Shown: positions 39,215 to 63,087 of the stretch, in pieces
Layout of the letters: each line of letters opens with the position of its first letter
How positions within the stretch are numbered: the stretch's first letter is position 1
Source: a virus
Virus record (IMG/VR): IMGVR_UViG_3300042691_027299
Coordinates: 1-64,000 of that record
DNA length: 64,000 nt
Reading direction: 5' to 3' (one strand)
Made by a program: the position numbers and the translations under genes
The notes under the pieces: generated by a model
Databases searched by the model: none
Told to the model about the DNA's origin: nothing
What the model saw: the letters and a program-made list of their open reading frames with translations, nothing else

Positions 39215-39227
39215 ACGGAGGCAAGAT

Positions 39228-39422: not shown

Positions 39423-39619
39423 TGTGCATGGCTAAAGCTCCGCCCGCTCCGCCGCCGCCGCAGGCTCCGCCGCCGCCGCCGACAGTGCAGGCCACTAAGA
39501 TCGAGGCGACCCGCAACCGTCAATCCCGCGCGGCTGTGCAAGGTGGCCCGTCGAGTGCCATGACTGGCGCTGGCCTCAGTCCGCAGGTGGCTGGCGCGTC
39601 TCCTGTGTTGGGCACCTGA
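39422..39619 (+). CDS. Met-Cys-start small Pro-rich protein, paralogue 3 of 3
   Basis: 65 residues, MCMAKAPPAPPPPQAPPPPPT, then RQSRAAVQGGPSSAMTGAGL. Shares the MC start and low-complexity style with the two upstream genes but lacks FGSELG. Adjacent to the portal start. Confidence 0.55.
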   Translation: MCMAKAPPAPPPPQAPPPPPTVQATKIEATRNRQSRAAVQGGPSSAMTGAGLSPQVAGASPVLGT

Positions 39620-39620
39620 C

Positions 39621-41405
39621 ATGGAGTATGACGAGAAGATCATCCACCTTAAGGAGCGTTACGATGGGCTGAAAAGCGCGTCGGAACGCACGAACTGCGA
39701 AAGCCATTGGCAGGAGGTTGGAGAACTCGTCTCGCCGCGCAAGATCGATTTCGTCGGGATGCGCACGCCCGGCGAAAAGAAGATGAACCGCGTCTATGAC
39801 AGCACGGGCATCCACGCCAACGAGATGCTGGCGGCCGGTCTGCATGGCATGGCCACCAACCCGGCAAGCCGGTGGTTCTCGCTGCGCCTCATGACGGACG
39901 ATGTCGTCAACCAGGACGGGACGCAGACCCCGGTCAATGAAGCGCCGGCCGTGCAGAAGTATCTCTCCGATGTCGAAGAGAAAATGTGGACGAAGTTGTA
40001 CCAACCGGGCACCAACTTCACCACGACACTGCATGAGGCCTATCTAGACCTCGGCGCGTTTGGAACGGCGGTCATCTACATCGGCCAGCGGGATGACAAC
40101 GGGTTGCTGTTCGAGTCCCGCCCGCTCGCTGAGTGCGTGATTGCAGAAAACGTTGATGGGCGCGTTGACACGCTGATGCGCTGCACGGCCTACACCGTGC
40201 GCCAAATGATCCAGATGGAGCGCAAAGGCGTTTGGAAAGTCTCGGAAGAGGTAAAGAAAAAATACGACGACAAATTGTATGATGAGACCGTGAAGGTCAT
40301 TCACAGCGTCCACCCGCGCGAGGACAACGAGCGCGAATACAAGGTGAAGAACGCAAAGAATATGCCGTTCGCGTCGATCTATTTCGAGCACGAGACGTGC
40401 CATCTGCTTGAAGAAAGCGGCTTCCCCGAGTTCCCGTATCTGGTGCCGCGCTGGTCGCGCTACGGTGGCGAGGTCTATGGCCGTTCGCCTGCGATGACGG
40501 CGCTGCCGGACATCAAGATGCTTCAGGCGATGGAGCTGACCAAGATTAAGCTCCTGCAAAAAGCCGCCGATCCGCCGATGGGAATCCGCGACGACAGCCT
40601 GATTGGCCAGGCGCGCACGGTGCCGGGCGGCTTGATGTATTTTAGGGGCAATCCCTCGGACAGCGTGTTCCAAATGCCGGTCAGCCTGCAAGGCATCCAG
40701 GCGATGATGGAGGACCAGTTGGCGCTGCGCGAGCGCATCCTGCGCACGTTCTTCGCTGACATCATGAGGATGACCGACCGCGCCAACATGACGGCCACCG
40801 AGGTGATGCAGCGCACGGCCGAGCAGATGCGGCTGTTTGGTCCGCTGATTGGACGGCTGGAAAGCGAGATGCTCGGGCCTCTGGTCGATCGCGTCTTTGG
40901 TATCCTCTCCCGGTTGGGCGAGCTGCCGCCGGCCCCGAAGGAAATTCAAGGCCAGGATTTCACAGTTGAGTATGTGTCGCCCATCGCCACGGCCCAGAAG
41001 CAGCAGGCGATCAGCGGCATCATGCAAACCTTCCAAGTCCTTTCGGCCTTCGGCCCCGAGGTCATGGCGCAGATCGTCCAGAAGCGCGTCGATGTGGATG
41101 CCTTGGTCTCGTGGCTGTGGGATTTGTTCAACAACGATCCAGACCTGCTGCGCGATGAAGAAGCGATGGAGCAGGGCGCGCAAATGGAGCAGATGCAGCA
41201 GCAGTTGGCTGTGGCTGGCCCAGCGGCCAACATCATGGCGACCGGCGCGCGTGGCATTAAGGATCTGAGTGCTGGGGCTGAGAAGGGTGGCAACCTGGCC
41301 GCGCTGATCTCGCAGTTTGCCGGCGAAGCCCAGGAAAACCCGCGCGCTCGCTACGAGATGAGCCAACTGGCTCAAGGTGAAATGCCAGAGCCGGCGGTTA
41401 TGTAA
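39621..41405 (+). CDS. Portal (head-tail connector) protein, unit B
   Basis: A 594-residue protein of the T7 gp8-like connector family. The N-terminus has the typical RYDGLKSASERTNCESHWQEVGELVSPRK and NRVYDSTGIHANEMLAAGLHGMATNPASRWFSL. Then YLDLGAFGTAVIYIGQRDDNG, YGRSPAMTALPDIKMLQAMEL and FFADIMRMTDRANMTATEVMQR, all diagnostic. The C-terminal 120 residues are helical. It forms the dodecameric ring for DNA passage. Different family from the unit A portal. Confidence 0.92.
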   Translation: MEYDEKIIHLKERYDGLKSASERTNCESHWQEVGELVSPRKIDFVGMRTPGEKKMNRVYDSTGIHANEMLAAGLHGMATNPASRWFSLRLMTDDVVNQDGTQTPVNEAPAVQKYLSDVEEKMWTKLYQPGTNFTTTLHEAYLDLGAFGTAVIYIGQRDDNGLLFESRPLAECVIAENVDGRVDTLMRCTAYTVRQMIQMERKGVWKVSEEVKKKYDDKLYDETVKVIHSVHPREDNEREYKVKNAKNMPFASIYFEHETCHLLEESGFPEFPYLVPRWSRYGGEVYGRSPAMTALPDIKMLQAMELTKIKLLQKAADPPMGIRDDSLIGQARTVPGGLMYFRGNPSDSVFQMPVSLQGIQAMMEDQLALRERILRTFFADIMRMTDRANMTATEVMQRTAEQMRLFGPLIGRLESEMLGPLVDRVFGILSRLGELPPAPKEIQGQDFTVEYVSPIATAQKQQAISGIMQTFQVLSAFGPEVMAQIVQKRVDVDALVSWLWDLFNNDPDLLRDEEAMEQGAQMEQMQQQLAVAGPAANIMATGARGIKDLSAGAEKGGNLAALISQFAGEAQENPRARYEMSQLAQGEMPEPAVM

Positions 41406-45758: not shown

Positions 45759-46361
45759 ATGGCCTCCGAAACCGACATCTGCAATCTTGCCCTGACCCGG
45801 TTGGGTCACAGCATGATTTCCGCTCTCAACGAGGGAACCAAGGCGGCAGATCTGTGCAATCTGCACTACCCTTTGGCGCGAGATTTCATGTTGCGCGATC
45901 ACCATTGGAATTTTGCCATTAGGCGATCGACGCTGGCCTTGTCGGCCACAACGCCCAACCACGAGTTTGCCTATCAGCACGCCTTGCCGGCGGATTGCCT
46001 CAAGGTGATCCGCACGGACCTTGACGATATCGCGGGCGGGATCGAGTACGGCTATCCGTATTCGACGGGGGCTCCTTACAAGATCGAGGGGCGGTATTTG
46101 CTGTCAGATGAAACGACCGTCAGGCTTGAATACGTCGCGCGGGTGACGGACGCAGCGCAATTCGACACGCTGTTTGTCGATTGCTTGGCGCAGCGATTGG
46201 CCGCCGAGCTGGCTATGCCGCTGGCCGACAACGCCAGTCTCGCAAAAACGATGTGGGATATGTACGCGGCCAAGATCCGCGATGCGCGCAGCGTCAACGC
46301 GCAAGAAGGCACGCCGCGTGAGTTTGTTGACGCCACCGGCTGGCTGACAGCGAGGCTCTGA
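45759..46361 (+). CDS. Tail tubular protein A (T7 gp11-like)
   Basis: A 200-residue protein. Start SETDICNLALTRLGHSMISALNEGTKAADLCNLHYPLARDFMLRDHHWNFAIRR is the classic podovirus gatekeeper/tail tube A pattern ('ic.lAL..lG...i.s..d.s..a..c...y...r...L....w.fa'), continuing with ALPADCLKVIR and YVARVTDAAQFDTLFVDCLAQRLAAELA. It forms the ring under the portal. Confidence 0.88.
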   Translation: MASETDICNLALTRLGHSMISALNEGTKAADLCNLHYPLARDFMLRDHHWNFAIRRSTLALSATTPNHEFAYQHALPADCLKVIRTDLDDIAGGIEYGYPYSTGAPYKIEGRYLLSDETTVRLEYVARVTDAAQFDTLFVDCLAQRLAAELAMPLADNASLAKTMWDMYAAKIRDARSVNAQEGTPREFVDATGWLTARL

Positions 46362-46363
46362 TC

Positions 46364-48829
46364 TTGGCTAAAGTCACCTATCCGATTACGAATTTTAGTG
46401 GCGGTGAGCTATCGCCCCGGCTGCGCGGCCGTACCGATATCAAGAAATACGCCTCCGGTTGCCGCACGCTGGAGAACTTCGACATCGTTCCGCACGGTGG
46501 CGCCCGTAAGCGCTCGGGCACGCGGTTCGTGTGCGAGCATTTCAGCGCGCTCCGGCTAGTGCCGTTCGTGTACAGCACCGAGCAGAGCTATTGCCTCGGG
46601 TTCGGGCACGAGTTCGTGTGGTTTTTCAAAGATCGGGGCGTCATCACGTTTACCCCGGTTGCCATCACCGGCATCACGCAGGCCGCCAATGGCGTGGTGA
46701 CGGCAACATCGCACGGGCTGACGACCGGAGACTATGTGCAAATCCTTTCGGTCGGAGGAATGACCGAGGTCAATAATCGGATTTTTGAAGTCACGGTGCT
46801 GACCGCCAACACGTTTGAACTCAACGTCGATACCTCGGGATATACCGCCTACACGTCCGGCGGCACAGTGGGAGAGGTCGTCAACTTGGTCACGACCTAC
46901 TCGATGGCCGATGTCGACGAGATGACCTTCGCTCAGGTTTACGATACGCTCTACATTGCGCATCGATCGCATCCGCTTCGCAAGATCACCCGGTTTTCGG
47001 ACACGTCCTGGACGCTGACGGCTCCAACAATCACAACGGGGCCGTTCCGGACGATTAACGGCAATCCCGATCTCAAGATCACGCCGAGCGCATTTTCCCT
47101 TGCTGCGACAGCGTATGGCACTTACACGGTCGGCACCAGTTGCACACTGACGGCCACCACGAACGCCTTCGATTCGGATATGATCGGCGGGCTGTTCCGG
47201 CTCAACGAGGAAGGCGCAGTTGGCGTGTCTTCGGCGCCGCTGGGATCGTCGGGCATTACCATCTCAGCCGGCTCGACCTATACCAATGCGGGAAACGTGT
47301 ACGGGGTTGCCAGCGTCGCGGGCACTGCCAACTGGGGGCAATACACGAGGGTCCCCGATCACACGTCCGGTCGCGTCCGGGTGTTTGGACCAACGGCATC
47401 AAACTACTTCGACTCTGACTTCCTGCATCCAGGCTATTGCATCGTACGGATCACGGCCGTCACGTCGGCCACCGTCGCGACTGCCGAAATTGTGCGGTAT
47501 CAGATGCCCGAGTCTGTCGTCCGCGCCGGCACAAGCCTTTGGGAAGAGGGCGCCTGGTCGGATTATCGTGGTTATCCGGGAGCGCTGGCGTTCTACGAGC
47601 AGCGTCTATTCCTGGCCGGGTCGACTTCGGAGCCGTCGGTTATTTGGGGCACGCGATCGGGCGGCTATGAGGATTTCACCGACGGCAGCGAAGACGACAA
47701 AGCGGTGACGTATCGCATTGCCGGCGGCTCGGCCGATGTGATCCGGTGGCTGGCCTCGGGCCGCGTCTTGATGGCGGGCACCAGCGCGTCGGAATATGCG
47801 ATTGCGGCGAGCAACCAGAACGAGGCGCTGACCCCTACCAACTTTAAGGCCGTCGTGCAGACCTCCTATGGCACGTCGGAAGCGCATCCGGTGCGCGTCA
47901 ATCAGCTTGTGCTCTATCCGCAGCGCGATGGCGCGGCAAACAACCCCGCCCGCAAGCTCCGGGAGTACCAATACAGCTATGCCGATGATGCCTTCCAATC
48001 CACGGATCTCACGATTTTTTCTGAACACATCATGGGCGCCGGCTTCACCGAGGTGGCTTATGAACTCGTGCCGGATAGCGTGATCTGGTGCCGGCGCACG
48101 GATGGCACGCTGGCAGCCTGCACCTATGAGCGGGCGCAAGAGATTATTGCCTGGGGCCGGCATATCCTGGGCGGCAGTGGCGAGGCGCAATCGATCTGCG
48201 TCATCCCATCCGATGAGGGCGATGAGTTGTGGCTGTCCGTGCTGCGCAACGGAGCGTATTCTATCGAGGTGATGCTGCCGCCATTCCAGGATGACGCCGA
48301 CAAAGAAGACGCGGTGTTGCTGGATAGCTCGTTGACCTATTCGGGCACATCGACCTCGACACTCTCGGGGCTCTGGCATCTGCGCGGGCAGGATGTGAAG
48401 GTGCTGAACAACGGCGCTGTCGAAAGCCACACAGTGACGAGCGCTGGCCGCGTCACGCTCAACCGAGCCACGACCAAAGCGCACGTTGGCTATGGCTACA
48501 CGGCGGTTCTGGAAACCCAGGATCTAGAAGCGGGCGCCCAGGCGGGAACGGCGCAAAGCCGGGCCAAGCGCATCAGCCAGGTCTACCCGCGACTGGTCGC
48601 GTCCCTTGGTGGCAGCATGGGGCCGGATGCGTCCAACCAAAAGGCGCTGCTGTATCGGCGCGCAACGCAGCCGATGGATGCAAGTCCGCCGCTGTTTACG
48701 GGTATTTCTCAGGAAAGCGTGGATTTTCCATCGGGCTGGGATCGTGAAGCTGTGGTAAGAATTGAGCACGACGATCCATTGCCGTTTCACGTTATCGCGT
48801 TGGTCGCTGAACTCTCGACTTCGGGGTGA
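46364..48829 (+). CDS. Tail tubular protein B (T7 gp12-like nozzle)
   Basis: An 821-residue protein starting at TTG 46364. YPITNFSGGELSPRLRGRTDIKKYASGCRTLENFDIVPHGGARKRSGTRFV is the diagnostic N-terminus of podovirus tail nozzle proteins. Further segments VPFVYSTEQSYCLGFGHEFVWFFKD, YDTLYIAHRSHPLRKITR and ASEYAIAASNQNEALTPTNFKAVVQTSYGTSEAHPVRVNQLVLYPQRDGA also fit. Large beta-propeller-like protein that closes the tail. Confidence 0.92.
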   Translation: MAKVTYPITNFSGGELSPRLRGRTDIKKYASGCRTLENFDIVPHGGARKRSGTRFVCEHFSALRLVPFVYSTEQSYCLGFGHEFVWFFKDRGVITFTPVAITGITQAANGVVTATSHGLTTGDYVQILSVGGMTEVNNRIFEVTVLTANTFELNVDTSGYTAYTSGGTVGEVVNLVTTYSMADVDEMTFAQVYDTLYIAHRSHPLRKITRFSDTSWTLTAPTITTGPFRTINGNPDLKITPSAFSLAATAYGTYTVGTSCTLTATTNAFDSDMIGGLFRLNEEGAVGVSSAPLGSSGITISAGSTYTNAGNVYGVASVAGTANWGQYTRVPDHTSGRVRVFGPTASNYFDSDFLHPGYCIVRITAVTSATVATAEIVRYQMPESVVRAGTSLWEEGAWSDYRGYPGALAFYEQRLFLAGSTSEPSVIWGTRSGGYEDFTDGSEDDKAVTYRIAGGSADVIRWLASGRVLMAGTSASEYAIAASNQNEALTPTNFKAVVQTSYGTSEAHPVRVNQLVLYPQRDGAANNPARKLREYQYSYADDAFQSTDLTIFSEHIMGAGFTEVAYELVPDSVIWCRRTDGTLAACTYERAQEIIAWGRHILGGSGEAQSICVIPSDEGDELWLSVLRNGAYSIEVMLPPFQDDADKEDAVLLDSSLTYSGTSTSTLSGLWHLRGQDVKVLNNGAVESHTVTSAGRVTLNRATTKAHVGYGYTAVLETQDLEAGAQAGTAQSRAKRISQVYPRLVASLGGSMGPDASNQKALLYRRATQPMDASPPLFTGISQESVDFPSGWDREAVVRIEHDDPLPFHVIALVAELSTSG

Positions 48830-48834
48830 TTTGA

Positions 48835-49326
48835 ATGTGCATGATGGCCGTCGGCGCGATTGCTGGACTTGCCGGATCGATGGTCAGCGCGATGGGTGCC
48901 AAGCAGCAGGCCGACGCGCAGGCACAGCAAATGGAATACAACGCAACGGTGTCCAAGATCAACGCGCGGCAGAACCGCATGCAGGGCATGGCCGAGCAGG
49001 AAAAGCTCGGCATGAAGTACGACAAGGTTGAAGGCACCGGCATTGCTAACGCGGCCAAGGGTGGCGTCGATCCGACGTATGGAAGCGCGGCGCTGACGAT
49101 CTTCGGGTCCAACTGGCAAGACAGAACGATGGACCAGGGCACCGCTTACGTGAACGCGGAAAGCGCGGCGGTCGGCAACGAGAACAAGGCCAAGGATCTC
49201 GAAGCCCAGGCAGCTTCGACGCGGCAGGCGGGCAAGATCGCGGCGGCGGGTACGTTCCTGAGTGGTATTGCCGGGACCATCAAGGGGTTCGGCGGCAGTG
49301 GCGGCGCATTGAAGATCAACGCATAA
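48835..49326 (+). CDS. Internal virion protein B-like (T7 gp14-like)
   Basis: A 163-residue protein, MCMMAVGAIAGLAGSMVSAMGAKQQADAQAQQMEYNATVSKINARQNRM. A short hydrophobic N-terminal segment then a long Gln/Ala-rich helix, which is the gp14-type pattern. Ends with a Gly-rich tail (AGTIKGFGGSGG). First of the ejection proteins that build the channel through the host envelope. Confidence 0.75.
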   Translation: MCMMAVGAIAGLAGSMVSAMGAKQQADAQAQQMEYNATVSKINARQNRMQGMAEQEKLGMKYDKVEGTGIANAAKGGVDPTYGSAALTIFGSNWQDRTMDQGTAYVNAESAAVGNENKAKDLEAQAASTRQAGKIAAAGTFLSGIAGTIKGFGGSGGALKINA

Positions 49327-49354: not shown

Positions 49355-52300
49355 GTGACTGAGCAGACGGTTGGCTATGAGCCCCGTCCGCAACCGTTCT
49401 CGACGGGTGATGGCTATGAAGCTCCCGGCCGCGCCATGCAGGCGCTTGGGCGGGGCATCGCGTCGTTGGGCGATGCGTTCGGGTCGTTCGCGGCGGAGCA
49501 GGACAAGGAAGCCGAGTTTGACGACAAGCTCCGCGTGGCAAAGGCGCTGAACAACGCCGATGCGGAGCTGTTGCAATTCAAGGAGACGTATCAGGGCGAC
49601 GGCTCGGATTTCGAGGGCCGGTCGCAGGACATCTACAAGAAGCACATGGACCCGGTGACGGGGGAACTGCGATCCAAGCGGATGCAGCAATCTTATCCGT
49701 TGTTCTATGAGCAGCAGCGCGGCAATCGCTACGAGCGGGCGATTGAGCACGGGTCTAAGCTGCGCACGCAGACGCGGGTGATTGCGACGCAAAGCCTGCT
49801 GGAAACGCAGATCGGCGCGCTGGACTGGTCGACTGCGGAAGCGGCTGAGCAGTCGATGACCACGGCGGTCGGGCTCGGCCAACGCATGATCGATGAGATC
49901 CCCGGCCTGACGCCAAAGCAGCGCGAAGAACAATACAAAAATGTGCGCGCGATGTTCGATCAGTCGATCAACAACCTGATGGCCAAGGGTAAGATCCCGG
50001 CCGGTGTGGTTGGCCCGACGCTGGAGCGCATTCGGGAAAAGCTCGGCGGTATGGTCGAGACGGAGCCGGTTGTGCCGACTGGCCCGGTTTCCGACATTCG
50101 GGACTTTACGTCGAAGCCGGGGCGCGGGTTTGGCCGCCTGGAAAAGCCGACGCATATCGTGCTGCATGACGTGTCGGGGGACGATCCCGGCCGCAAGCGG
50201 GTGCCGCAGGGCGGCAACATCCCGCAGTATCACATCACCTTCGACAAGAGCGGCATCAATCTTGAGGTGCCTTTTGATCGGCAGGCGCCACACGCGCGCG
50301 ACTTCAACAAGCACTCGATCGGCATCTCGCACATCGGCTATGAAGGCGACACCCTTGATCCGCAGGCGATCAGGAACGGCGCCAAGGCCGTGCTCATGGT
50401 GCAGGAGAAGTTCGGCATTCCGGCCGAAAACATCCTGACGCATCCCGAAGGCGGCCCGCGCGCCACCAAAAGCGGCGGCAAAGATCCAAAGGAAGCCGCC
50501 TGGCGCAAGGATGTGCTGGACTATATCGGCGCGAACCGGGCGCAATTGCTGGCCGAACTGCAAGGCGGTGGAGCCGCGCCGCAGGTCGCGGGCACGGCCG
50601 CTCGCGCGGTCAGCCAGTCCGGCCTGGACTTCATCAAGAAGGAAGAAGGCTGGAGGCCGCAAGCCTACGCTGACGGGCGGCAGACCTCGGTCGGCTGGGG
50701 CACGCGCGGACGGCCCGGCGAAAAGATCGACGAGGCGGAAGGCGAGCGGCGGTTGCAGGCCGAGCTTGCTGAGGCCAACGCGGCGATCGACAAGGCGGTC
50801 AAGGTGCCGCTGGCCCAGCCGCAACGGGATGCGCTGGTGTCTTACGTGTTCAACGCGGGACCCAACGGCGCGGCGCGCAACGTGTTCGCGGCGATCAACG
50901 ACGGCGACATGAAGAAGGCCGCCGATCTGATGCGGGCCGACGACAAGGGGGGCGTCGTTGCCAACCGTCGCGGGCGCGAAGTGCAGATGTTCCTGGCGGG
51001 TGGCGCGCCGACAGGTGAAGACCTGAAAGCCCGGTCCCTGACGGCGGGCCGGGTTCCGGCCAATGATCGGGGCGAACCACGCGAAGCCAACGCCATTCCT
51101 GGCGCCCCGGTGCGGGTGGCGGATGCTGGTGGTTCTGTAACCACGGACGCCACCAAGCCCGGCGCACTGACACCCGCACCCGGCCAGCGTCTCAAGAACT
51201 CGCTTGCGCTTGAAATGCTGCGCCATCTTGATGAGAAGGGTCCGACCTGGATCGACATGGACAAGAAGCGCGTCCAGGGCGCGATCAAAAGCGCCCGCGA
51301 TAAGGTATTGGACGGCTACCCGCTGGATGAACCGACCGAAGCCGCGCTGTCCGCAGCGGTGCAGGGCGCTCGCGATCCCGCGCTGGCGTTGGAGCTTGGC
51401 GCCCTGACCTCGATGCGCGATGAAATCCGCAAGGCGCAGATCGCCCCAATGCCACAGACGCAGGCAATGATCGCGCAATGGCAGCGCGCGTTCCAGAACC
51501 GGACACCGACCGACGTTGAGAAAAAGGCCCTGGAGACGCTGCAAGATCTGGTCGTGAAGAAGGAAACCAAGCTGCGTGAAGACCCGTTGTCGTGGGCGCG
51601 GTCAACCGGCATCACCTTGCCTGGCGTCGACATCACGACGCAACTCAACAATCCCTCGGCCATTGACGCTCGGCTGGCAGAAGCGACCGTTGTGGCGCAG
51701 CAATTCCAGATCCCGATGCAGTATTTCACGGAAGCTGAGCGCAAGGGGATGGCCAAGCTGATCGAGCAGGGCGCCGATCCGTTGAGCATTGCCGCGCCGA
51801 TTGTCGAGCGATGGGGGCCGATGCACGCCACGCAGGCCATGCGTGAGCTGTCCGACAAGATCCCCGAAGCGGCTATTGCGGGCTATCTGCTGCCAACCAA
51901 CCCGCAGTTGGCCATGGACATCTCGACCGACATGAAGAACCGGCAGGTCACGGGCTACAAGCCGATTGACCCGGACAAGATCATGGTGGAGAGCGCCAAG
52001 TCAGCGCTCGGCGATACGTTCGCGCAATTCCCGAAGGCCCAGCAAGACATGGTGATGGCGGCGGCAACCGCAGCCTGGAGAACGCGCGCCCACAAGACGG
52101 GACAGGCAACGCAAGAGACCTTGTTGCAGGCCATGCGTGAGGTGCTGGGCGAGCGCAAGGACGCCAAGGGCGAGGTCTACGGCGGCATCACCGAGACGGG
52201 CAAGAAGACCGACCCGGTGCTTGGGAGGCGGCCGCACACGATTGTTCTGCCGCCGCAATGGAAGCAGGAGAGTTTTACGTCGCGCTGGACGCCGGGCGAT

Positions 52301-52660
52301 GGGGAAAACTGGAAAACCGTCCTGCAAAAAGTCACGGACGAGGATCTGATTGCCGCCGGCATTGCGCCACCCGTCAACAGTCGAGGCGAACGCATCCCGA
52401 TGGCGAGCCTGTTGAGCAAGGGCACGCTCTCCCACGCCCGCGATGGCAATGCCAACGGGCGCTACGAGGTGGCGATGGGCGCGCTCGGGTCCAGTAAAGA
52501 GGATTGGGCGTTCGCGGGCGCGTGGGTCACGGACCCCTCGGCTCCGGGCCGCCCAACAGCGGGCAAGACGGCCAAGCCCAGTGGTCTGTTCGTGCTCGAT
52601 CTCAACAAGCTCTATCCGATCCTGAAGCGCCGCTATCCCGGCGCCTTCTTCCCGGAGTGA
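49355..52660 (+). CDS. 1101-residue ejection protein with amidase and lysozyme domains
   Basis: Starts at GTG 49355. Residues 20-250 are helical, internal-virion-protein-like. Residues 264-375 form an amidase_2/PGRP-like domain: THIVLHDVSG near 266, QYHITFDKSGINLEV around 291-305 and LTHPEGGPRATKSGGKDP around 361-378 as zinc and active-site regions. Residues 421-550 are a GH24 lysozyme (LDFIKKEEGWRPQAYADGRQ; Glu 431, Asp 440, Ser 445 in the Thr position; then DALVSYVFNAGPNGA). The rest is helical. Two peptidoglycan-cutting activities would open the wall during DNA ejection. Confidence 0.85.
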   Translation: MTEQTVGYEPRPQPFSTGDGYEAPGRAMQALGRGIASLGDAFGSFAAEQDKEAEFDDKLRVAKALNNADAELLQFKETYQGDGSDFEGRSQDIYKKHMDPVTGELRSKRMQQSYPLFYEQQRGNRYERAIEHGSKLRTQTRVIATQSLLETQIGALDWSTAEAAEQSMTTAVGLGQRMIDEIPGLTPKQREEQYKNVRAMFDQSINNLMAKGKIPAGVVGPTLERIREKLGGMVETEPVVPTGPVSDIRDFTSKPGRGFGRLEKPTHIVLHDVSGDDPGRKRVPQGGNIPQYHITFDKSGINLEVPFDRQAPHARDFNKHSIGISHIGYEGDTLDPQAIRNGAKAVLMVQEKFGIPAENILTHPEGGPRATKSGGKDPKEAAWRKDVLDYIGANRAQLLAELQGGGAAPQVAGTAARAVSQSGLDFIKKEEGWRPQAYADGRQTSVGWGTRGRPGEKIDEAEGERRLQAELAEANAAIDKAVKVPLAQPQRDALVSYVFNAGPNGAARNVFAAINDGDMKKAADLMRADDKGGVVANRRGREVQMFLAGGAPTGEDLKARSLTAGRVPANDRGEPREANAIPGAPVRVADAGGSVTTDATKPGALTPAPGQRLKNSLALEMLRHLDEKGPTWIDMDKKRVQGAIKSARDKVLDGYPLDEPTEAALSAAVQGARDPALALELGALTSMRDEIRKAQIAPMPQTQAMIAQWQRAFQNRTPTDVEKKALETLQDLVVKKETKLREDPLSWARSTGITLPGVDITTQLNNPSAIDARLAEATVVAQQFQIPMQYFTEAERKGMAKLIEQGADPLSIAAPIVERWGPMHATQAMRELSDKIPEAAIAGYLLPTNPQLAMDISTDMKNRQVTGYKPIDPDKIMVESAKSALGDTFAQFPKAQQDMVMAAATAAWRTRAHKTGQATQETLLQAMREVLGERKDAKGEVYGGITETGKKTDPVLGRRPHTIVLPPQWKQESFTSRWTPGDGENWKTVLQKVTDEDLIAAGIAPPVNSRGERIPMASLLSKGTLSHARDGNANGRYEVAMGALGSSKEDWAFAGAWVTDPSAPGRPTAGKTAKPSGLFVLDLNKLYPILKRRYPGAFFPE

Positions 52661-55600
52661 TGATGTTTTTCACCAAACCGAACTTTTCCCCGATCATACT
52701 CCCGGACGACGCGGCCCTGGACAAGCCGGACCAGCCGACGGCTGGCGTTGGCGAGGTGTTCCGCACGCAGGAAGAGGCGGTCGACAAGTCGCGGCAATGG
52801 TTTTCATTCGAGGAAAACCGCAAGGACGTGTTTCGCGAGCACCGGAAAAAGATCAAAGATCTGACCGGCGAGGATATGCCGTTTGGCGAGGACTCGTCCG
52901 GCCTGATTTCCAGCATGAAATTCCAGGTCACGCCTGAGAAGGAAGTGGACCTCTACAAAGACTGGCACCAATACCAGCGCGACGGCGGAACGCTCGGGTT
53001 CAAGTCGTTCTATTGGAGCCGCTACGAGCAGGGCTATCGCGAGCGCTTGCAGTATTTGGCGGATAAGTATCCCCAGCACCGTGATGCGATCCTGCCGCCG
53101 GAGATGTCCTTCGAAAGCCAGGCGCGGCAGATGGGTGCGGACGCTGAGAAGCAGGCGGAGGAAGCGTGGGCGCGTTCCAAGGGCGTGGCGCCGTATCTGG
53201 CGTGGCTGGGTGCCGAAGTAAAAGGCACGTTCAAAGACCCGCTGATGGTCGGCAGCTTGCCCTTGCAGAGCATGGTCTGGGCCGGCCGCTCGGCTGCGGG
53301 CATGAAGGGCATCGTTGAATCGTTCCTGAAGTCGGGCGCCGTCAACGCGGGCGTCGAGGTTGGCATGGCGCCGCTGCGCCAGGGCGCCCGTAAGGAATTA
53401 GGCCTCGACTATGGGGCGGGTCAGGCGGCTGTCGACATTGGCGCCGCGTTTGCGTTGGGCGGTGGATTGGATGCCGCGATACGTGGCACGTCGCGCGCCG
53501 GACGCTGGGCCTTTGGCTACGAGCCCGTGCTGGATGAAGCCGGCAAGGTGATGGCCTATCGCAAGAAGCTTGCGGATGGCCGCACCGTGGACGTGGCGCC
53601 GACCGTTCATGAGAAGGCCGAAGCCGGGGATGCGGCGGCTATCCGCCAACTGGCCGAAAAGGAAGGGCTCAACGACCCGCTCGCAATCCAGGCGCTCGAT
53701 GCGCTGGAAGCCGATCAGCGGTTGGCCCAGAAGCCTTCATCCAAAATTCACGACGTTGAGCATGATGCGGCGCTCGCGCAGGCCACCCGCCACATCGACA
53801 CGCCGGAGCTTGAGCCGGTGCCGGTCGTGCGTGAGGTCTCGACCACGCAACTCCGTGAAATCACCGACATGCAGGCCGATGCGCGCGTGGAATTGAAGCG
53901 GCTGGAAGCAGACATCGAGGCACGGCTACGCGACGAGGCCAGCGTCGACACGGCACGGGCAGACGCCAAGGCGCGTGACGAGGTGCTGAGGCTGCGCACC
54001 GAGGCCGAGAAGGCACGGGCTGACCTGGAAACACAGATCGCGGCGCGCGAGCTTGAGATCCTGCGGCTCCGCGACGGCCTGATGAGCAAAGAGCTTCAGG
54101 ATCTTCAGGACACAGGTCAATTCCGCGAGGACTACATCGAGGCCGTGATTGACCACGTTCCGGCCATGGAGATGCAGGCGCGGGCGCTTCAGGACTTGGC
54201 CAAGCGCGCACCCGGCACGCCGGCCGAGGTGCGGCATGTGCTGTCGGAACTGCTGCAATCGCCAGACTACCGAGCCCCGACCGTGGACATCGGGCCAACC
54301 CCGCAAAGCCGGGGCCTCAAAGACAAGGCTCTGGATGACCCCTATGGCCCCGATGCCAAGGCGCAGGTCGACGCCTTGATGGCCGACCAGGCGCAGGAGT
54401 TGGGCCTAGCCCCGGTCCAGCGCGGCAAGGGCAAAGGGAAGCAAGCGGGAACCGCAGCGAAGTCGCCGGAAATCGACGCGAATTCGCCGGCACGCCAGCC
54501 GACAGCGCGGGAGTTGACGCCGGACCCGATCGAGCGGGCCGCCAATGTGGCGCGAGCCGTGGATGAGGCGGTTGCCGAAGCCGTTCAGGACGCAGCGATC
54601 TACCGCGACCCGGTGACGGGCGACATCATGAGCGAGGGCGAGGTTGTCGACCTCATTGGACTCTGGCGGTACGTCAAAGAAGAAAAGCGGCCGAAGCGTC
54701 CTCAAGGGCTGCAAGCCTTCATCATGGACACGGGCCGGCTCAAGGACCAAGGCGGCGAGATTACCGCCATGCTTGGCGGCAAAAACCGGCAACTGATTTC
54801 GGAGAAGGGCTCCACGCTCGACGACGCGGCACTGCGAGCCTATGAGGCCGGATTTTTCCCCGAGCGGCCGTCAATTTCCGAGTTCCTTGACGCACTGTCG
54901 CGGGACATCAATGGCGAGCCTGTGATACGATTGCAGGATGCGGCCGATCTTGAGGCATGGCGCGCCTTCCGGGATTTGGAGACCCAGCTTGACCAACTTG
55001 GCATCGCAGGACTTAGAGACGAAACCGCAATCCGAGACCATTTCCGTGCGCGAGCGGTTGAAGGAAATGCGCTTGCTGGTCGCCAAGATCGAGTCGTGGA
55101 AGCGCGACCAGACGACGACATCCCATTCTTCCGAGTCACCCAAGACACCCAAGTAACCGACCCGACGCAACGCTTGGTCGATGCGGCCACGTCCGAATTC
55201 AATTGGATGGCGGGTGATGCAGGCGTCGGGTTCAACGTCTATGCCAATGCCAGGGCGTTGCCGGAGCGCTTGCGGGCTGCGGTTGAATTGCGCGAAGCAG
55301 CCGGCGGCCGTGTTGCTGCCTTTGACGATCCTCAAACCAATGCCGTCTATGTCTCGCTTGCCGCACTGCAAGACGGCGAGATTGCGCGCGTGGCGCATGA
55401 AGTGACGCATGCCCTGGAACGGCTCGGCATCCTACAGAGCGGCGATGTGGCGTTGCTGGCGGAACGGGCCAAGCTGGTTGGCGATGATGTGCTGGCCTTT
55501 GACCGGGCCTCGTATGAAGCGGACTTCCGGGCGCGGGGACTGAGCGAGAACCAGATTGCGGCGCGCGTCCAATCAGAAGAAGCGGCGCATCTGATCGAAG

Positions 55601-58600
55601 CCCGCCGGGCTGGACGTGACTTCGGCCGTGAGATCAACGGCATCATCGACCGGGTGTTGCAGTTTTTTGAACGCCTGCGCAACAAGCTCTCCGGCTACGG
55701 GTTCCAGACCGCAGACGATGTGATCGAAGCCGTACTCTCAGGTGAGATGGCCAAGCGGAAAATTGTTCGCGATGCCATGGTGCAAGAGGACATTACAGCG
55801 TTTGCGCTGCGACCGACGCTCGACATGAGCCGCGAGGCCCGTATGGCACGAGCACAAGCCATGGGCTTTGACACATCAACGGTCTGGTATCACGGCTCGG
55901 CCCGCACAGATCGCATTGCCGATAAAAGCCAGTTCGACCCGAAGCGCGCAACCAGCGGGCCGATGGCGTTCTTTTCGGACAGCCCGGACATTGCATCGAA
56001 CTATGCGCGCGGAAAGCCTGATACGTCGATCGTCGACGAGGGGAACATCCCGAATTACTACACGGTCGATCCGAAGGCGCTAGGGACCGGGGGGCGCTCG
56101 CCCATTTCGGTCGAGCAATCGTGGTATTTTCTGACCCCGGAGCAGAAACAAGTCATCGTGTCGCGGATGCGCCGCGTCGGATATGAAAATATCGATGAAG
56201 CGACCGGGCCTTGGACACTCCATCCCGAAGGCGTTGAGGCATCGCTGAACGGCGAGCATTTGATGTACTTGATGCGTGAGTCACGCGGCAATCCGCTGGC
56301 CGCGCTGCGCAAGATGTGGCTTGAAGGCGGCGATCTGGTCGGCCGTGAGGATGAGCTGGCCAAGATTTTCGAGTTGGCCGGATACCCGCATCAGATCAGC
56401 CAAAAGACGGCGCCATGGTACGAGGCTCAGGGCGTCGTGCCGGTTTACCTCAAGATGACGAAGCCGCTGAAGACGGACGACACGGCGACTCTCCGCGACG
56501 TTGTGGTTCCGTATCTTGAGCAGAAATTCCGCAACGATCGAAGCCGAAAAAAGGAGTTCGGCGCGGATGATTGGGACAAGAATACCCGCTGGACGCCGAA
56601 GGAATGGGTTGCCGAACTCAAGCAGAACGTCGCGGACGACAAAGCTGGTTACGTTTGGACATCGATCCCCGACAAGGTGACGGCCGCGCTTCGAGAACTT
56701 GGCTATGACGGCATCCTCGACATGGGGAACAAGGGCGGCGGTGGGACAGATCACCGCGTCGCCATTCCGTTCGGGCCGCAGCAGGTGCGCAGCGTCAACG
56801 CCCGCTTCGATTCCGCCAAAGCTGACAGCCCTAATCTGATGTTCGCCTTTGCTGGCGAGCGTGCCAAGACGGCTGACCTTGATAAACTTGCCAAGGCCAA
56901 GACACTAGAAGCTGAAGGCGCAGATCGGACCAAGATCTGGAAGGAAACAGGCTGGTTCCGGGGCGTGGATCAGAAATGGCGCTTTGAGATTGATGATAGC
57001 CAAGCCCGGATGGCCAATTTCTACCGGGACGACACCTATCCCAATATTTTGAGGGCTCACGTCCCAAAGAACAGAGCCGACTATCTCCCGCAGGCGTTGC
57101 CGCTTGAAGACTATATCAACCATGCTGGGCTAGAGCAGGCCTATTGGCCGACGCGCGAACAAGCCCCGTCCGTGATCTTCGACGACCTTGGCAACCGTGT
57201 ACGGGGGCGCTATTCGCGCGGCTCCGATCTGATCACGATGGACAGCGGATCGTTTCTCGCCAAGGACGAAGGCAAGTCAACGGTGCTGCATGAGTTGCAG
57301 CATCGTATCCAGTACGATGAAGGCTTTCCCACGGGCGGCAATGAGAAGTCCGGCGTGGCCGCCTACAATGAAATATCGGCGCGTATCACCCGTCTGATCG
57401 ACGAAGCTGGCGGCAACTTGCGTAATGCATCGCCTGATATTCGCCAGCAAGTCGAAGCGCTAAAAGCTGAACAGAAAGCGCTGCCGTTCGACCCATACGA
57501 ATACTACCGCCGTCTCGCCGGCGAGGTCGAAGCCCGCACTGTCCAGAAGCGCATGAACATGACCCCAGAAGAGAGGGCCAAACGCCCGCCCTGGGAGGAC
57601 TACGACGTTTCCGAGAAAGACCAGATCGTCCGCATGCCGGAAGATCAAGGCCCCATGTTCGCGATGAGCCAGGACATCGAGACCGGCCAGTCCATGCGCC
57701 GGGATCTGGATGCTCTGGCAAATTGGGTGCCACCGTATGCAAAGGCTGACGGCATAGCGGCCATTGATGACCTTGCAAAGAAGGTCGATCCAACCGGGAA
57801 GTTTTTCGACCGTCCGACGACGTGGGTGGTCAGAAGCCACATTCGCGGAGAATTTAGAAACTTCCGTGCGCTGCTATCTTCCGAAGGAGACACGCACTCC
57901 ATCGAGCAGATAGGGCCGAGCAGGTATCTTTTAAGAAGTCCATCTGGCAGCTCCAGCTACAACAGCCTGGAGTCAGTCGAAAAGGCATTGTCTGACGTTC
58001 GGAGCACAGCCGCCGGCCAAAGGATGGCATTGCGCCATGCCGCACGGCAGATGGTGGACTACGCGATCGATCGCAATCCACAGCGCAAGAAGCAAACCGT
58101 CTATCGCTTCGTCGCTCACCCGACATACGACGCATTGAAGGCTGGCGATACGTTCACCGACCCGGCGTTCATGTCGACGACCAGGATGGTGGTTGAGACT
58201 GCCAAACTTGAGCAAGGCCATTCTGATACCGTGCTTCGGATCAAGCATTGGAGCGGCTTCGACATCGAGGCGTCTCCGTTCATTGCGGATACAAGTCTCA
58301 ATCGAGGCGAACTGGAAGTCTTGATCCCGGCTGGGCAACAGTTCGTTGTCACCAAAGTCGAGATGAACAAAAACGGCGTCAGGATCATCGACCTCGATGA
58401 AGTCAGCGATCAACAGCCGATGTTCGCGATTGGCAATGGGACTCAGTATGTCGCGCGTGATTTGGATAGCCTTGGGTATTATTCCAAAGCCCTGGAAGCC
58501 GCTCGTGGCCTCAAACAAGCCAAAGGCACGCCAGAGCAAATGCTGGCGCAGTTGAAGAAAGCAGGCGTCAAGGATGCGGAGATTGCGGCCACCCGTCTTG

Positions 58601-61600
58601 GCGAGGCCATGTCCGGCAAATCCTCCATCACCCGTGACGAGATCATCAAGCATCTGGAAGAGAATAGAGTCGGACTGAAGGAGGTTGTGCGCGAGGCAAA
58701 GAACGCAAAGCCTGATCGACTCCGCAACTACATTGCAGAAGAGTTTGGCAATCCGTCTCCTGGCTACAGGATCGAGGAGACCAAATGGTCTCAATTCTCC
58801 CTCGACCCCTCCAACCCGACGTATCGAGAGACTGTTCTGCATCTGCCGGAAGGCCAACCCGACCCGGTGCAGAAGGCCGCCTATGATGCGGCATCGCAGC
58901 GCTATAAAAACGCGCTTGCCAAGCAGGAAACCATCGACCGCAGAAAGCCGAACCTGACGCCTGACGAGCAGGCAATCATCGATGAAGTCAAGGCTGCGCA
59001 AGTCGTATTGCAAAACACCTCGGCCCCGATCGCCGCAATAAATTTCCAATCCGGCCACTTCTCCGAGCCTAACATCATTGGCCACATGATGACGAGCCTG
59101 ACTCGTCATGAGGGCAAGCCCGTCTTCTTGATTGACCAGATTCAATCGGACTGGGGACAGAAGCTCAGGGATGGGGGAGTCCGGGACGAGGCCAAGATTG
59201 CGGAGTTGAAGGCAAAGCTAACAGCGGCAAAGGCCAAATTCTTCGACGACGTGCGAAAGGCGTTTCCGGGCGAAGACCCGATGTATATTCCCGAACCGAA
59301 GCTCAACAATGCGGGCATAAGTTCGTCGGATTGGGACCGGCTGCAAGCCGAACTCCGCACCGCAGAAGCCTCATCTCCAGGCAATCCCCTTGTTAACACT
59401 ACAGACCAATGGACAACGACAACTCTCCGTCGTGCCATTCGTCAGGCCATCGAAGCCGATGCGGATTACATTGCCATCCCTCATGGCGATACGGTGCTGA
59501 GCTATAACCCCGGTGATACGAACGGGATGCGAGGCTTCTACGGCTCGCGCGCGACTGAGGGCATCGTGCCCAAGAACCTGCGCAAGCTTCTGCAATCCAT
59601 CGATAAGGAAGCGCAGCCGCAGAAGGTGGAAACGCTGACCACGCCAGCCGGCGAGCGCGGCTATAAGCCCGGCGCGGATAGCGAGTTTGAGCCCAACGAA
59701 ACCGGCTTCACGCTGTTCCCTCTGACCCCGACCGTCAAGGACAAGGTGCGGGCCGAGGGCATGCCGATGTTTGCCATGGCGCGGCAGGAAGCCTCGGAGC
59801 CCAGGCCTCAGCAACTCGATCCAGAAACCCTGATCGAGCAACTGGCCAACCTCGCCGAGCCGGTGCGGCAAGCCCTGCGCGCAGCGGACCAGACCAAGGT
59901 CGCCAGACAATTCAACTTCCTCACGGATGAAACGGGCCTTGTCTCATCCATGACCGAGGATGCGTCTCTGCGTATCCTGCGCAACGACGAGGGCATCATT
60001 TCAGGTGTCGAATATCGGGGCGTACCCTACCAGATCGGCCGCGACGAAATCGGCAACATCACTGGCCTGCTGACGGCCGCGCAGAAGGAAGCGCTAGACC
60101 AGCAGAACGCCGTCACGCAAACGGTGGCGGATCTTATTGCCACCAACACGGGACTTGCGCCCGAGCGGGCCAAGCTCATTGCCGATGAGGCCATGGGCAT
60201 CGTCACGCAGAACCTTGCCGATCCCGATGCCATCCGCACCGGCCTTGCCGATCTGGTGCAGCGGACCATTGACGAAATTCAAGGCCCGATGTTTGCGATG
60301 ACCGACGACCGGGGCCGCATGAAGCCCGGCGCGGAGATGCGCAAGCGCGAACTGGCCGCCGATCTGGCCGAAATCGAACTACGCTTTCAGAACTCGCAAG
60401 GCGACGAGCGCGTGAAGCTTCAGCAGCAGCGCGCGGCGTTGCTGGGCGCCAAGGCGCTGGAAGAACGCATCGACGTGGTGAACAGCTTTGTTGACGCCAA
60501 AGGCCGGCACGATCCCGCCAAGGCACTGTTGTTTATCCAAGAGGCCAACCCGTATCAGACGGCGGGCAAGGATCTGGTGACGCTGCGCAACGTCATCGAA
60601 AAGACCGCCTGGGAGAAATTGAGCGAAGTTCTGTGGAACTTCCGCAAGGGTGCGGTGACGGGCGATTTGCGGCGCCGCTCGGCCTCGATGCAGACCGACA
60701 TGGCCGACATGATCCGCGCAGCAGCCGGGGAAAAGGTGGAAAACCCTGCGGCAAAGGTTTTTGCTGACGCATGGCTCGGCGTGGCGGAGATGCTGCGCCA
60801 GCGCTTCAACGCGGCGGGCGGGGATATTCCCAAGCTGCAAGGCTGGTTCGCACCGCAGTTCCACGATGCGGAAGCACTTCTCAAGGTCGGCCGCGACACC
60901 TGGATCAGCTATCTGATGCAACCGGGGGTGCTCGATCGAGCGCGCATGGTGGACAACCTATCGGGCGCGCCGCTGACCGACGACCAGTTGCGCCAGGCGC
61001 TGCGCAATGTCTACGAGGCCGTGACCACGGCTGGCCAGGCCAAGCTTGATCCGGGCGAAGTCGCCCCCGGCCGGGGTGCGCTCTACAAGCAGCACGCCGA
61101 ACATCGGTTCATTCACTTCAAGAACGCGGATGCGTATCTGGCCTATAACAAGCTCTATGGCGGCGGCGACGTGTATGCGGCCATGATCGGCCATGTGCAT
61201 CGGATGGCCCGCGACATCGCCGCGATGGAGATCCTTGGCCCCAACCCGCACCTGACGTGGACCCGGCTCAAGGCCTACGTGCAGAACCAAGTGATGACCG
61301 ATCCGTCCTTGCGCGTGCCGACCTTGGTCAGCGACCTTGGCGAGCGGGTTCAGGACTTTAGTGCGGCCACCAACGGAGCCGGAACACTCGATCCGCTGAT
61401 GGCCAACATCGACGCGACGACCACCCGCCTTGAAGCCTTGCGCAATGCCGACCGCAACCGGATCAAGAAGCGCCACACGACCGAGATTGCCAAGCTTGAA
61501 ACCGAGTTGGCCGATGCGGCGTCGCAGATCGAGGATGCGATGACGGCGCTGACGACGGAGCCCAGGCATCACACGCTGGCTGGCGAGGTGCAAACCTTGC

Positions 61601-63087
61601 TGAATGACCTGACCTCGATCCAGGGCTACGGCATCAAGCCGGCCTGGAGCTCGATCAGTCCGCGCGATCCGCAGTCCCGGACCAATCACCTGATAAAGCG
61701 CGCCGACGCCATGTGGGCCATGTATATGGGCACAAGCGGCGTTCCCGTTTACAAAGAGTTTGCCGCGTTTATGTCAGGCGCCCGCAACTGGATCTCGTCG
61801 TCGGCACTGGCTTTCGCGCCGATGTCCTCAATCACGGATCAGACGACGCAGATGGCGGCTCGCCTTATGAGCAGCGTTCCCGTGACGAAGCAACTCGGAT
61901 CGTTTGTGAAAGCCTTCGGCAAGCAGGATCGGCAGTTGGCGCTCTCGACGAGTCTCGGCCTCGACACCGTGCGCAATGCGTTCGCCGAGCAGGCGGCCAT
62001 GGTCGACCGCATGAACGCGCAGGGCTGGACCTCCTACATCGCGGATCGCACGCATGCGCTGTCGTTCCTGTCGCCGATGACCTCGGCGCAGAAGTTGGCC
62101 TATGGACTGGATTTTCAGCGGCACATGGCGACCCTGATGGACATGGGCTATCAAAGGCTCGGCCCCGCCACGCGGCGCATGTTCGAGCGCCACGACATTA
62201 CGCCGGCCGATTGGGATCTAATTCGCTCGGCCACGCCGGAGCCAGACAACTCCGGCACGCCCATGCTGACCCGTGCCGCCATTGAGGATGCGGTCGGCAT
62301 CGATCTGGCCGAAAAATATCTGATGATGCTTTACCGCGAGGGATCAGGCTCGACGCTGGAAGCCTCAGCACGGGGGCGCACCTTTTACATTGGCGAGACG
62401 CAGCCGGGCACCTTGCAAGGTGAAGTATGGCGTAGCATAGCCATGCTCAAGAGCTTCCCGACTACGTTCACCATGAACGTCATAGGACGCATCTACTATG
62501 AGATCATGGCCGGTCGTGGCTTTGCGGCGCAGACGGTTGGGTATGCCGCAGCCATCTTTATTGGCGGAACACTGCTTGGAGGCGTGGCAAAGCAGTTGAA
62601 AGCTATCGGCCAGGGGCGCGACCCGCAGGACATGACGACTCCAAAATTTTGGGCGCAGGCCTGGATGCAATCGGGCGGCGTCGGCATCCTCGGCGACTTC
62701 ATTGGATCAAGTGTCAGTCGCACGGGCGTCGGCCAGATTGAAACGCTGGCGGGACCGGTGGCCTCAAACCTCTTCAATCCCATAATTGGCCTGACAGCCG
62801 GCAACCTCTGGCAATACGGTCAAGACCAGAAAACCAACCTTGGCCGCGAAAGCGTGAACGCTCTGCGCCGCAATACGCCGGGCGCCTTCGTGCCCTGGTA
62901 TCTGCGTCTCGCCTATGAGCGTCAGATCCTCGATGCGCTACAGGAACAGGTCGACCCCGAGGCCTATCGGGACTTCGCTCGGAAGCGGGCCTATTGGCGG
63001 CGCACGGCCAACCAGGATTTCTACTGGCCGCCGGGGGCCTCTACTCCACAGACGCCTGTCAATTTCGACCGCGCCGTGGGGCGTTAG
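52660..63087 (+). CDS. 3475-residue polyvalent ejection protein
   Basis: Starts at ATG 52660 in a TGATG overlap. N-terminal 850 residues: virion-protein-like, with a coiled coil near residues 400-480. Then a zincin-like segment with HEVTH (913-917) and an ART-PolyVal-like segment starting WYHGSARTDR (1076). Next come a second HExxH-like site HELQH (1544-1548, LPD23-like) and an ADP-ribosyltransferase-like domain with R1816, STT 1839-1841 and E1884-L-E1886. A domain with IDQIQSDWGQKL follows, then a long C-terminal region (about 2545-3475) ending YWPPGAST, typical of podovirus gp16-like proteins, with one hydrophobic stretch near 3285-3305. Motif PMFA(M/I) marks module borders. Confidence 0.88.
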   Translation: MMFFTKPNFSPIILPDDAALDKPDQPTAGVGEVFRTQEEAVDKSRQWFSFEENRKDVFREHRKKIKDLTGEDMPFGEDSSGLISSMKFQVTPEKEVDLYKDWHQYQRDGGTLGFKSFYWSRYEQGYRERLQYLADKYPQHRDAILPPEMSFESQARQMGADAEKQAEEAWARSKGVAPYLAWLGAEVKGTFKDPLMVGSLPLQSMVWAGRSAAGMKGIVESFLKSGAVNAGVEVGMAPLRQGARKELGLDYGAGQAAVDIGAAFALGGGLDAAIRGTSRAGRWAFGYEPVLDEAGKVMAYRKKLADGRTVDVAPTVHEKAEAGDAAAIRQLAEKEGLNDPLAIQALDALEADQRLAQKPSSKIHDVEHDAALAQATRHIDTPELEPVPVVREVSTTQLREITDMQADARVELKRLEADIEARLRDEASVDTARADAKARDEVLRLRTEAEKARADLETQIAARELEILRLRDGLMSKELQDLQDTGQFREDYIEAVIDHVPAMEMQARALQDLAKRAPGTPAEVRHVLSELLQSPDYRAPTVDIGPTPQSRGLKDKALDDPYGPDAKAQVDALMADQAQELGLAPVQRGKGKGKQAGTAAKSPEIDANSPARQPTARELTPDPIERAANVARAVDEAVAEAVQDAAIYRDPVTGDIMSEGEVVDLIGLWRYVKEEKRPKRPQGLQAFIMDTGRLKDQGGEITAMLGGKNRQLISEKGSTLDDAALRAYEAGFFPERPSISEFLDALSRDINGEPVIRLQDAADLEAWRAFRDLETQLDQLGIAGLRDETAIRDHFRARAVEGNALAGRQDRVVEARPDDDIPFFRVTQDTQVTDPTQRLVDAATSEFNWMAGDAGVGFNVYANARALPERLRAAVELREAAGGRVAAFDDPQTNAVYVSLAALQDGEIARVAHEVTHALERLGILQSGDVALLAERAKLVGDDVLAFDRASYEADFRARGLSENQIAARVQSEEAAHLIEARRAGRDFGREINGIIDRVLQFFERLRNKLSGYGFQTADDVIEAVLSGEMAKRKIVRDAMVQEDITAFALRPTLDMSREARMARAQAMGFDTSTVWYHGSARTDRIADKSQFDPKRATSGPMAFFSDSPDIASNYARGKPDTSIVDEGNIPNYYTVDPKALGTGGRSPISVEQSWYFLTPEQKQVIVSRMRRVGYENIDEATGPWTLHPEGVEASLNGEHLMYLMRESRGNPLAALRKMWLEGGDLVGREDELAKIFELAGYPHQISQKTAPWYEAQGVVPVYLKMTKPLKTDDTATLRDVVVPYLEQKFRNDRSRKKEFGADDWDKNTRWTPKEWVAELKQNVADDKAGYVWTSIPDKVTAALRELGYDGILDMGNKGGGGTDHRVAIPFGPQQVRSVNARFDSAKADSPNLMFAFAGERAKTADLDKLAKAKTLEAEGADRTKIWKETGWFRGVDQKWRFEIDDSQARMANFYRDDTYPNILRAHVPKNRADYLPQALPLEDYINHAGLEQAYWPTREQAPSVIFDDLGNRVRGRYSRGSDLITMDSGSFLAKDEGKSTVLHELQHRIQYDEGFPTGGNEKSGVAAYNEISARITRLIDEAGGNLRNASPDIRQQVEALKAEQKALPFDPYEYYRRLAGEVEARTVQKRMNMTPEERAKRPPWEDYDVSEKDQIVRMPEDQGPMFAMSQDIETGQSMRRDLDALANWVPPYAKADGIAAIDDLAKKVDPTGKFFDRPTTWVVRSHIRGEFRNFRALLSSEGDTHSIEQIGPSRYLLRSPSGSSSYNSLESVEKALSDVRSTAAGQRMALRHAARQMVDYAIDRNPQRKKQTVYRFVAHPTYDALKAGDTFTDPAFMSTTRMVVETAKLEQGHSDTVLRIKHWSGFDIEASPFIADTSLNRGELEVLIPAGQQFVVTKVEMNKNGVRIIDLDEVSDQQPMFAIGNGTQYVARDLDSLGYYSKALEAARGLKQAKGTPEQMLAQLKKAGVKDAEIAATRLGEAMSGKSSITRDEIIKHLEENRVGLKEVVREAKNAKPDRLRNYIAEEFGNPSPGYRIEETKWSQFSLDPSNPTYRETVLHLPEGQPDPVQKAAYDAASQRYKNALAKQETIDRRKPNLTPDEQAIIDEVKAAQVVLQNTSAPIAAINFQSGHFSEPNIIGHMMTSLTRHEGKPVFLIDQIQSDWGQKLRDGGVRDEAKIAELKAKLTAAKAKFFDDVRKAFPGEDPMYIPEPKLNNAGISSSDWDRLQAELRTAEASSPGNPLVNTTDQWTTTTLRRAIRQAIEADADYIAIPHGDTVLSYNPGDTNGMRGFYGSRATEGIVPKNLRKLLQSIDKEAQPQKVETLTTPAGERGYKPGADSEFEPNETGFTLFPLTPTVKDKVRAEGMPMFAMARQEASEPRPQQLDPETLIEQLANLAEPVRQALRAADQTKVARQFNFLTDETGLVSSMTEDASLRILRNDEGIISGVEYRGVPYQIGRDEIGNITGLLTAAQKEALDQQNAVTQTVADLIATNTGLAPERAKLIADEAMGIVTQNLADPDAIRTGLADLVQRTIDEIQGPMFAMTDDRGRMKPGAEMRKRELAADLAEIELRFQNSQGDERVKLQQQRAALLGAKALEERIDVVNSFVDAKGRHDPAKALLFIQEANPYQTAGKDLVTLRNVIEKTAWEKLSEVLWNFRKGAVTGDLRRRSASMQTDMADMIRAAAGEKVENPAAKVFADAWLGVAEMLRQRFNAAGGDIPKLQGWFAPQFHDAEALLKVGRDTWISYLMQPGVLDRARMVDNLSGAPLTDDQLRQALRNVYEAVTTAGQAKLDPGEVAPGRGALYKQHAEHRFIHFKNADAYLAYNKLYGGGDVYAAMIGHVHRMARDIAAMEILGPNPHLTWTRLKAYVQNQVMTDPSLRVPTLVSDLGERVQDFSAATNGAGTLDPLMANIDATTTRLEALRNADRNRIKKRHTTEIAKLETELADAASQIEDAMTALTTEPRHHTLAGEVQTLLNDLTSIQGYGIKPAWSSISPRDPQSRTNHLIKRADAMWAMYMGTSGVPVYKEFAAFMSGARNWISSSALAFAPMSSITDQTTQMAARLMSSVPVTKQLGSFVKAFGKQDRQLALSTSLGLDTVRNAFAEQAAMVDRMNAQGWTSYIADRTHALSFLSPMTSAQKLAYGLDFQRHMATLMDMGYQRLGPATRRMFERHDITPADWDLIRSATPEPDNSGTPMLTRAAIEDAVGIDLAEKYLMMLYREGSGSTLEASARGRTFYIGETQPGTLQGEVWRSIAMLKSFPTTFTMNVIGRIYYEIMAGRGFAAQTVGYAAAIFIGGTLLGGVAKQLKAIGQGRDPQDMTTPKFWAQAWMQSGGVGILGDFIGSSVSRTGVGQIETLAGPVASNLFNPIIGLTAGNLWQYGQDQKTNLGRESVNALRRNTPGAFVPWYLRLAYERQILDALQEQVDPEAYRDFARKRAYWRRTANQDFYWPPGASTPQTPVNFDRAVGR

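Follow-up and report, generated by a model that had tools for sequence, protein, structure and literature searches.

Phage polyvalent proteins, as described by Iyer et al. (2017; PMC5512222), are large multidomain products of late genes that can carry zincin-like metallopeptidases, ADP-ribosyltransferases (ARTs) of the ART-PolyVal type, and LPD domains. The same study predicted that these proteins are processed by their embedded peptidases, and it described HYD2 ARTs inside polyvalent proteins and R-S-E ARTs outside them (PMC5512222). T4 Alt is both packaged and injected (PMC5512222).

The protein considered here, referred to below as the giant, is encoded by one uninterrupted open frame of 3,475 amino acids at positions 52660-63087 (+ strand) of the window, the 64,000-nucleotide stretch of viral DNA that was analyzed. 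The ATG start codon of the frame overlaps the stop codon of the upstream gene. The open frame, Pfam, and PHROG matches identify a polyvalent virion-type protein that resembles the described ones in its size, late-gene position, zincin-like metallopeptidases, ART-PolyVal, and LPD domain. A sequence-only reading had proposed two ART-like and two zincin-like segments in a polyvalent protein. The motifs on which it relied (HEVTH at residue 913, HELQH at 1544, WYHGS at 1076, R1816, S-T-T at 1839, and E-L-E at 1884) were all found at those residues, and Pfam matches and family alignments bear out all four segments at the sequence level. At the level of fold, the segment at residues 1667-1920 was clear (Z up to 12.6), and the zincin segments were matched weakly (Z up to 6.6 and 4.8). 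The polyvalent assignment agrees with the presence of several domains of disparate activities in one polypeptide (LPD23, ART-PolyVal, ART PF01129, and two conserved HExxH families) together with a virion-structural C terminus. Two HExxH motifs were obtained in 6 of 5,000 residue shuffles of the giant (mean, 0.05), and the R..F.STT..ExE pattern was obtained in none of 2,000.

The account of the whole locus that we consider fairly probable is that a temperate phage of the podovirus type encodes the giant as a polyvalent virion protein, which would be packaged and ejected, with ARTs that modify the host and zincins that process the protein itself.

Genomic setting and modules of the giant

The source record is a linear virus record of 64,595 bases, and the presence of an integrase and an Erf-like gene suggests a temperate phage. 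A podovirus-type module starts at ∼36.7 kb with genes for terminase, a portal-like head-tail adaptor, protease, the major head protein, and two tail proteins (45759-46361, phrog_394, and 46364-48829, phrog_376; both + strand). It continues with an internal virion protein (48835-49326, +; phrog_418, 3.6e-22) and a 1,101-amino-acid companion virion-type protein with amidase_2 and phage lysozyme domains (49355-52660, +; phrog_992, head protein), followed by the giant. We take this gene order to be that of the ejected proteins gp14, gp15, and gp16 of T7, with the giant in the position of gp16. Furthermore, gp60 of phage H66, which shares the LPD23-zincin region with the giant, is annotated in its record as detected in virions by mass spectrometry. 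Gene position and this annotation suggest, by analogy, that the giant is probably a virion component that enters the host together with the DNA.

The record also contains two large-terminase and two portal-type genes (window positions 3151-6829 and 36710-41405). The first portal gene had no match in 12 related records, and the doubled set probably represents two neighboring prophages or a joined contig.

In the proposed arrangement, N- and C-terminal virion-type regions would flank a series of exchangeable payload modules: zincin-like segment 1, ART1, LPD23 with zincin-like segment 2, ART2, and the IQSDWG module. The C-terminal virion structural region (residues 2548-3475; 60301-63084, +) matched phrog_684 at 3.2e-124, with the best stretch at residues 3008-3472, and has homologs in 111 phage records; a sequence search against the PDB gave no relative for it. 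The IQSDWG module (residues 1925-2368; 58432-59763, +), which had no confident Pfam family, is common to many giants and contains the conserved motifs IQSDWG and HGDTVLSYNPG. LPD23 (residues 1396-1451; 56845-57012, +) was recognized with Pfam PF18838 (3.9e-24).

Zincin-like segment 1 (residues 880-1050; 55297-55809, +) contains HEVTH at residues 913-917 (55396-55410) and a third ligand, E973 (55576-55578). H913, E914, H917, and E973 were invariant in a 10-sequence alignment, and the core of the model had a pLDDT of ∼80-94, with a weak match (Z 4.8) to lethal-factor metalloproteinase. Zincin-like segment 2 (residues 1452-1664; 57013-57651, +) contains HELQH at residues 1544-1548 (57289-57303) and E1622 (57523-57525); H1544, E1545, and H1548 were kept with E1622/E1624 in a 13-sequence alignment. 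One relative of segment 2 (L060) matched DUF6782, a putative metallopeptidase, at 6e-4. The VIA matches of segment 2 to IrrE/PprI, SPRTN, ArdC, and selecase were weak (Z 5.3 to 6.6). No Z value for either zincin reaches the range in which Z becomes distinctive, and the fact that unrelated HExxH folds gather at the top of the matches of the segment 2 model is suggestive only. Both HExxH motifs were located in confident helices of a 785-residue model. Profile searches with the zincins against the PDB gave no sequence relative and one chance-level match to a designed protein. A joint row alignment of zincin-like segment 2 and ART2 was misaligned and was discarded. It is possible that the zincins process the giant itself instead of host proteins. 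A related giant (L060:4379-12826) combines a PBECR5 RNase-like domain with LPD23 and zincin segments.

Cassette exchange and the recurring joint motif

Close relatives, whose tail protein is 92% identical to that of the window, matched residues 644-1116 and 1921-2406 of the giant at ∼50 to 55% and were without LPD23, zincin-like segment 2, and ART2. The LPD23-zincin2-ART2 part was missing from G010; at this place, G010 has MFAVQQDIETGRSMRRDLDSLGYYSK, and the window has MFAMSQDIETGQSMRRDLDAL, then ART2, then PMFAIGNGTQYVARDLDSLGYYSK. Relative to G010, the ART2 cassette is bordered by a duplicated MFA...RDLD sequence. G016 has the same two ends as G010 with ∼260 amino acids between them. In a comparison of the genome of the window with 38 related records, ART2 was present only in the former. 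These sequence comparisons show that the middle of the giant has been exchanged as cassettes, and the giant illustrates the swapping of payload cassettes between virion-type ends.

The sequence [PL]MFA[MIF] occurs five times in the giant (mean of 0.004 in shuffles), as LMFAF at residues 1393-1397 (56836-56850), PMFAM at 1665-1669 (57652-57666), PMFAI at 1920-1924 (58417-58431), PMFAM at 2369-2373 (59764-59778), and PMFAM at 2543-2547 (60286-60300), all on the + strand. Across 24 giants, 29 related motifs of the form [PA][ML]F[AS] were found, compared to 5.6 in shuffled sequences. Twenty-four of the 29 were within 5 amino acids of a homology-block boundary, compared to 4.4 for random positions (0 of 5,000 draws), and 11% of other phenylalanines were near such boundaries; these statistics are descriptive, as the proteins compared are related. 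The same motif was kept where the module before or after it changed. No mention of a recurring [PA][ML]F[AS] joint, or of any interdomain site, was found in Iyer et al. (2017; PMC5512222). A motif that recurs at module seams at the protein level offers specific positions to examine for self-processing.

One serious possibility, which in our judgment still falls short of probable, is that the joint motif is a recombination seam only, at which modules were exchanged through short shared sequences, and that it has no role in the protein. The coincidence of breakpoints with the motif and the duplication flanking the ART2 cassette are consistent with such an origin. However, the codons of the joints vary freely (CCG/CCT/CCC/CCA, GCG/GCC/GCA/GCT, and TTC/TTT), which argues that what has been kept is the sequence of the protein and not that of the DNA, although old exchanges followed by synonymous drift would give the same picture. 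It is somewhat doubtful that the joint is instead an uncleaved structural or packaging element, such as a flexible hinge or a docking peptide for unfolding and passage through the portal and tail. In both models, the joints fall in stretches of low confidence that are probably flexible, as might be expected of such an element, and the virion RNA polymerase of N4, which likewise contains a metallopeptidase domain, is packaged without being processed (PMC5512222). However, the large giants of H66, 8P, G019, and G023, which were included in the same survey, are without the motif.

In the self-processing account that we favor, the zincins would most likely act on the giant itself, freeing modules at or near the flexible [PA][ML]F[AS] joints. 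A more specific version, in which the joints are cleavage sites of zincin-like segment 1 and the giant is a self-cutting phage polyprotein that yields separate effectors, including two ARTs of different clades, during or after ejection, seems unlikely to us. If it were true, the motif would predict fragment ends for a whole group of such proteins. In the discovery set, zincin-like segment 1 was present in 12 of 12 testable motif-bearing giants versus 0 of 11 others, a count biased by the choice of giants through the IQSDWG module, since the motif forms the end of that module; zincin-like segment 2 had no such association in this set. In the subset chosen by the tail gene alone, segment 1 was present in 5 of 5 motif-bearing giants versus 0 of 6 others. 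However, only 1 of 4 proteins in a later, independent set selected by segment 1 had the joint motif, and the association was no longer considered established, because the other three were without it. Thus, cleavage at the joints by segment 1 is a testable idea rather than a result.

A separate record (L042+L043, record G022) contains a 7,891-amino-acid phage open frame with LPD23, ART-PolyVal, zincin-like segment 1, and a joint motif, and it has a long region in common with the giant of Pseudomonas phage 8P.

Two types of ADP-ribosyltransferase in one protein

ART1 (residues 1070-1385; 55867-56814, +) is of the ART-PolyVal/HYD type, with H1078, Y1115, and D1350 as active-site residues. The match to Pfam PF18760 (5.9e-9; 37.3 bits versus a curated cutoff of 31.2) is in two stretches, the better one at residues 1258-1380, split by an insertion of ∼135 amino acids. 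All three active-site columns are kept in G010. The model of ART1 was too poor (pLDDT mostly <50) for its fold to be judged.

ART2 (residues 1690-1914; 57727-58401, +) was assigned to the R-S-ExE arginine type by Pfam, alignment, PDB profile, model, and fold matches. Its active-site codons are those of R1816 (58105-58107), S1839 (58174-58176), and E1884 to E1886 (58309-58317), on the + strand. Pfam ART PF01129 matched residues 1810-1917 at 2.2e-5, above the cutoff, and R1816, G1829, S1839, T1840, E1884, and E1886 were invariant in a 21-sequence alignment of viral ARTs, for which R-S-E relatives were collected with a degenerate DNA pattern scan. A profile search against the PDB with ART2 gave 50 sequences, including Vip2, CdtA, Vis, HopU1, ExoS/T, and XopAI. 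The core of the AlphaFold model (∼1784-1914) had a pLDDT of mostly 70 to 95, and its N-terminal part was poor. Foldseek returned 122 PDB matches at E ≤ 0.001 (one at 8e-9), and the 50 listed were ART entries. The best VIA match of the model was to 6drh (Z 12.6; root mean square deviation, 2.5; 132 residues aligned), a fold match that in part reflects the ART rows in the alignment of the model.

Arginine-specific ARTs have the E-x-E form. Conservation of the motif and the modeled fold clearly place ART2 among the R-S-E ARTs of the arginine type by fold, and transfer of ADP-ribose to arginine is predicted. Both ARTs would use NAD and ADP-ribosylate host proteins early in infection.

With ART2 as the query, no close relative was found in phage records, plasmids, or IMG/VR or GTDB contigs. 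PF01129 had 18 matches in 398 genomes of one phylum, all in frames of ≤469 amino acids and none in a giant frame. It seems improbable that ART2 is a toxin-like domain of recent acquisition with a role in the lysogen or in bacterial competition rather than in infection. Such an origin would fit the identity of 6drh, the closest solved fold, which is the structure of an antibacterial ART toxin from a bacterial toxin/immunity pair, and the lack of ART2 in all other related records searched, but ART2 sits in frame inside a late virion-type gene. There is similarly little to recommend the view that one or both ARTs and zincins are catalytically inactive and have been retained as structural domains, as might be thought from the long insertion in ART1, because catalytic positions are all kept in all four segments.

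R-S-E ARTs were also seen in other viral proteins. Four are in tandem in a 1,276-amino-acid protein (L125:6833-10660), and one follows a zeta-toxin-type domain (L107:1-2535). Three phage portal proteins (L114:290-5059, L140:4511-8347, and L101:6900-9791) have a C-terminal R-S-E ART, one of them also with a NUDIX domain.

Comparison with described phage proteins

The giant of Pseudomonas phages H66 and F116 (Hollowayvirus gp60; ∼3,790 amino acids) is likewise encoded in a late position, and its LPD23-zincin2 region is ∼30% identical to that of the giant described here. However, it has no ART2, zincin-like segment 1, or joint motif, and its ends are different. The virion structural protein of SPN1S (phrog_684) has a homologous C-terminal region and a similar gene order but consists of 824 amino acids with no payload modules seen. 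Phormidium phage Pf-WMP4 gp32, a 1,459-amino-acid podovirus protein encoded after tail and internal-protein genes, contains an R-S-ExE ART at residues 1242-1404. Thus, this locus is not unique in having a large podovirus protein with an R-S-E ART encoded beside internal-protein genes. Unlike the giant, gp32 had no LPD, ART-PolyVal, or HExxH zincin that could be found.

The T4 Alt/VIP2-type ARTs have the R-S-E active site in common with ART2 but are not embedded among zincins and LPD domains. ART2 matched many R-S-E families at a similar level, from which T4 Alt/VIP2 was not set apart. The comparison with T4 Alt is an analogy by clade only. The giant differs from the previously described polyvalent proteins by carrying an R-S-E ART. 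In uniting two ART clades formerly described as separate, it is an exception to that division.
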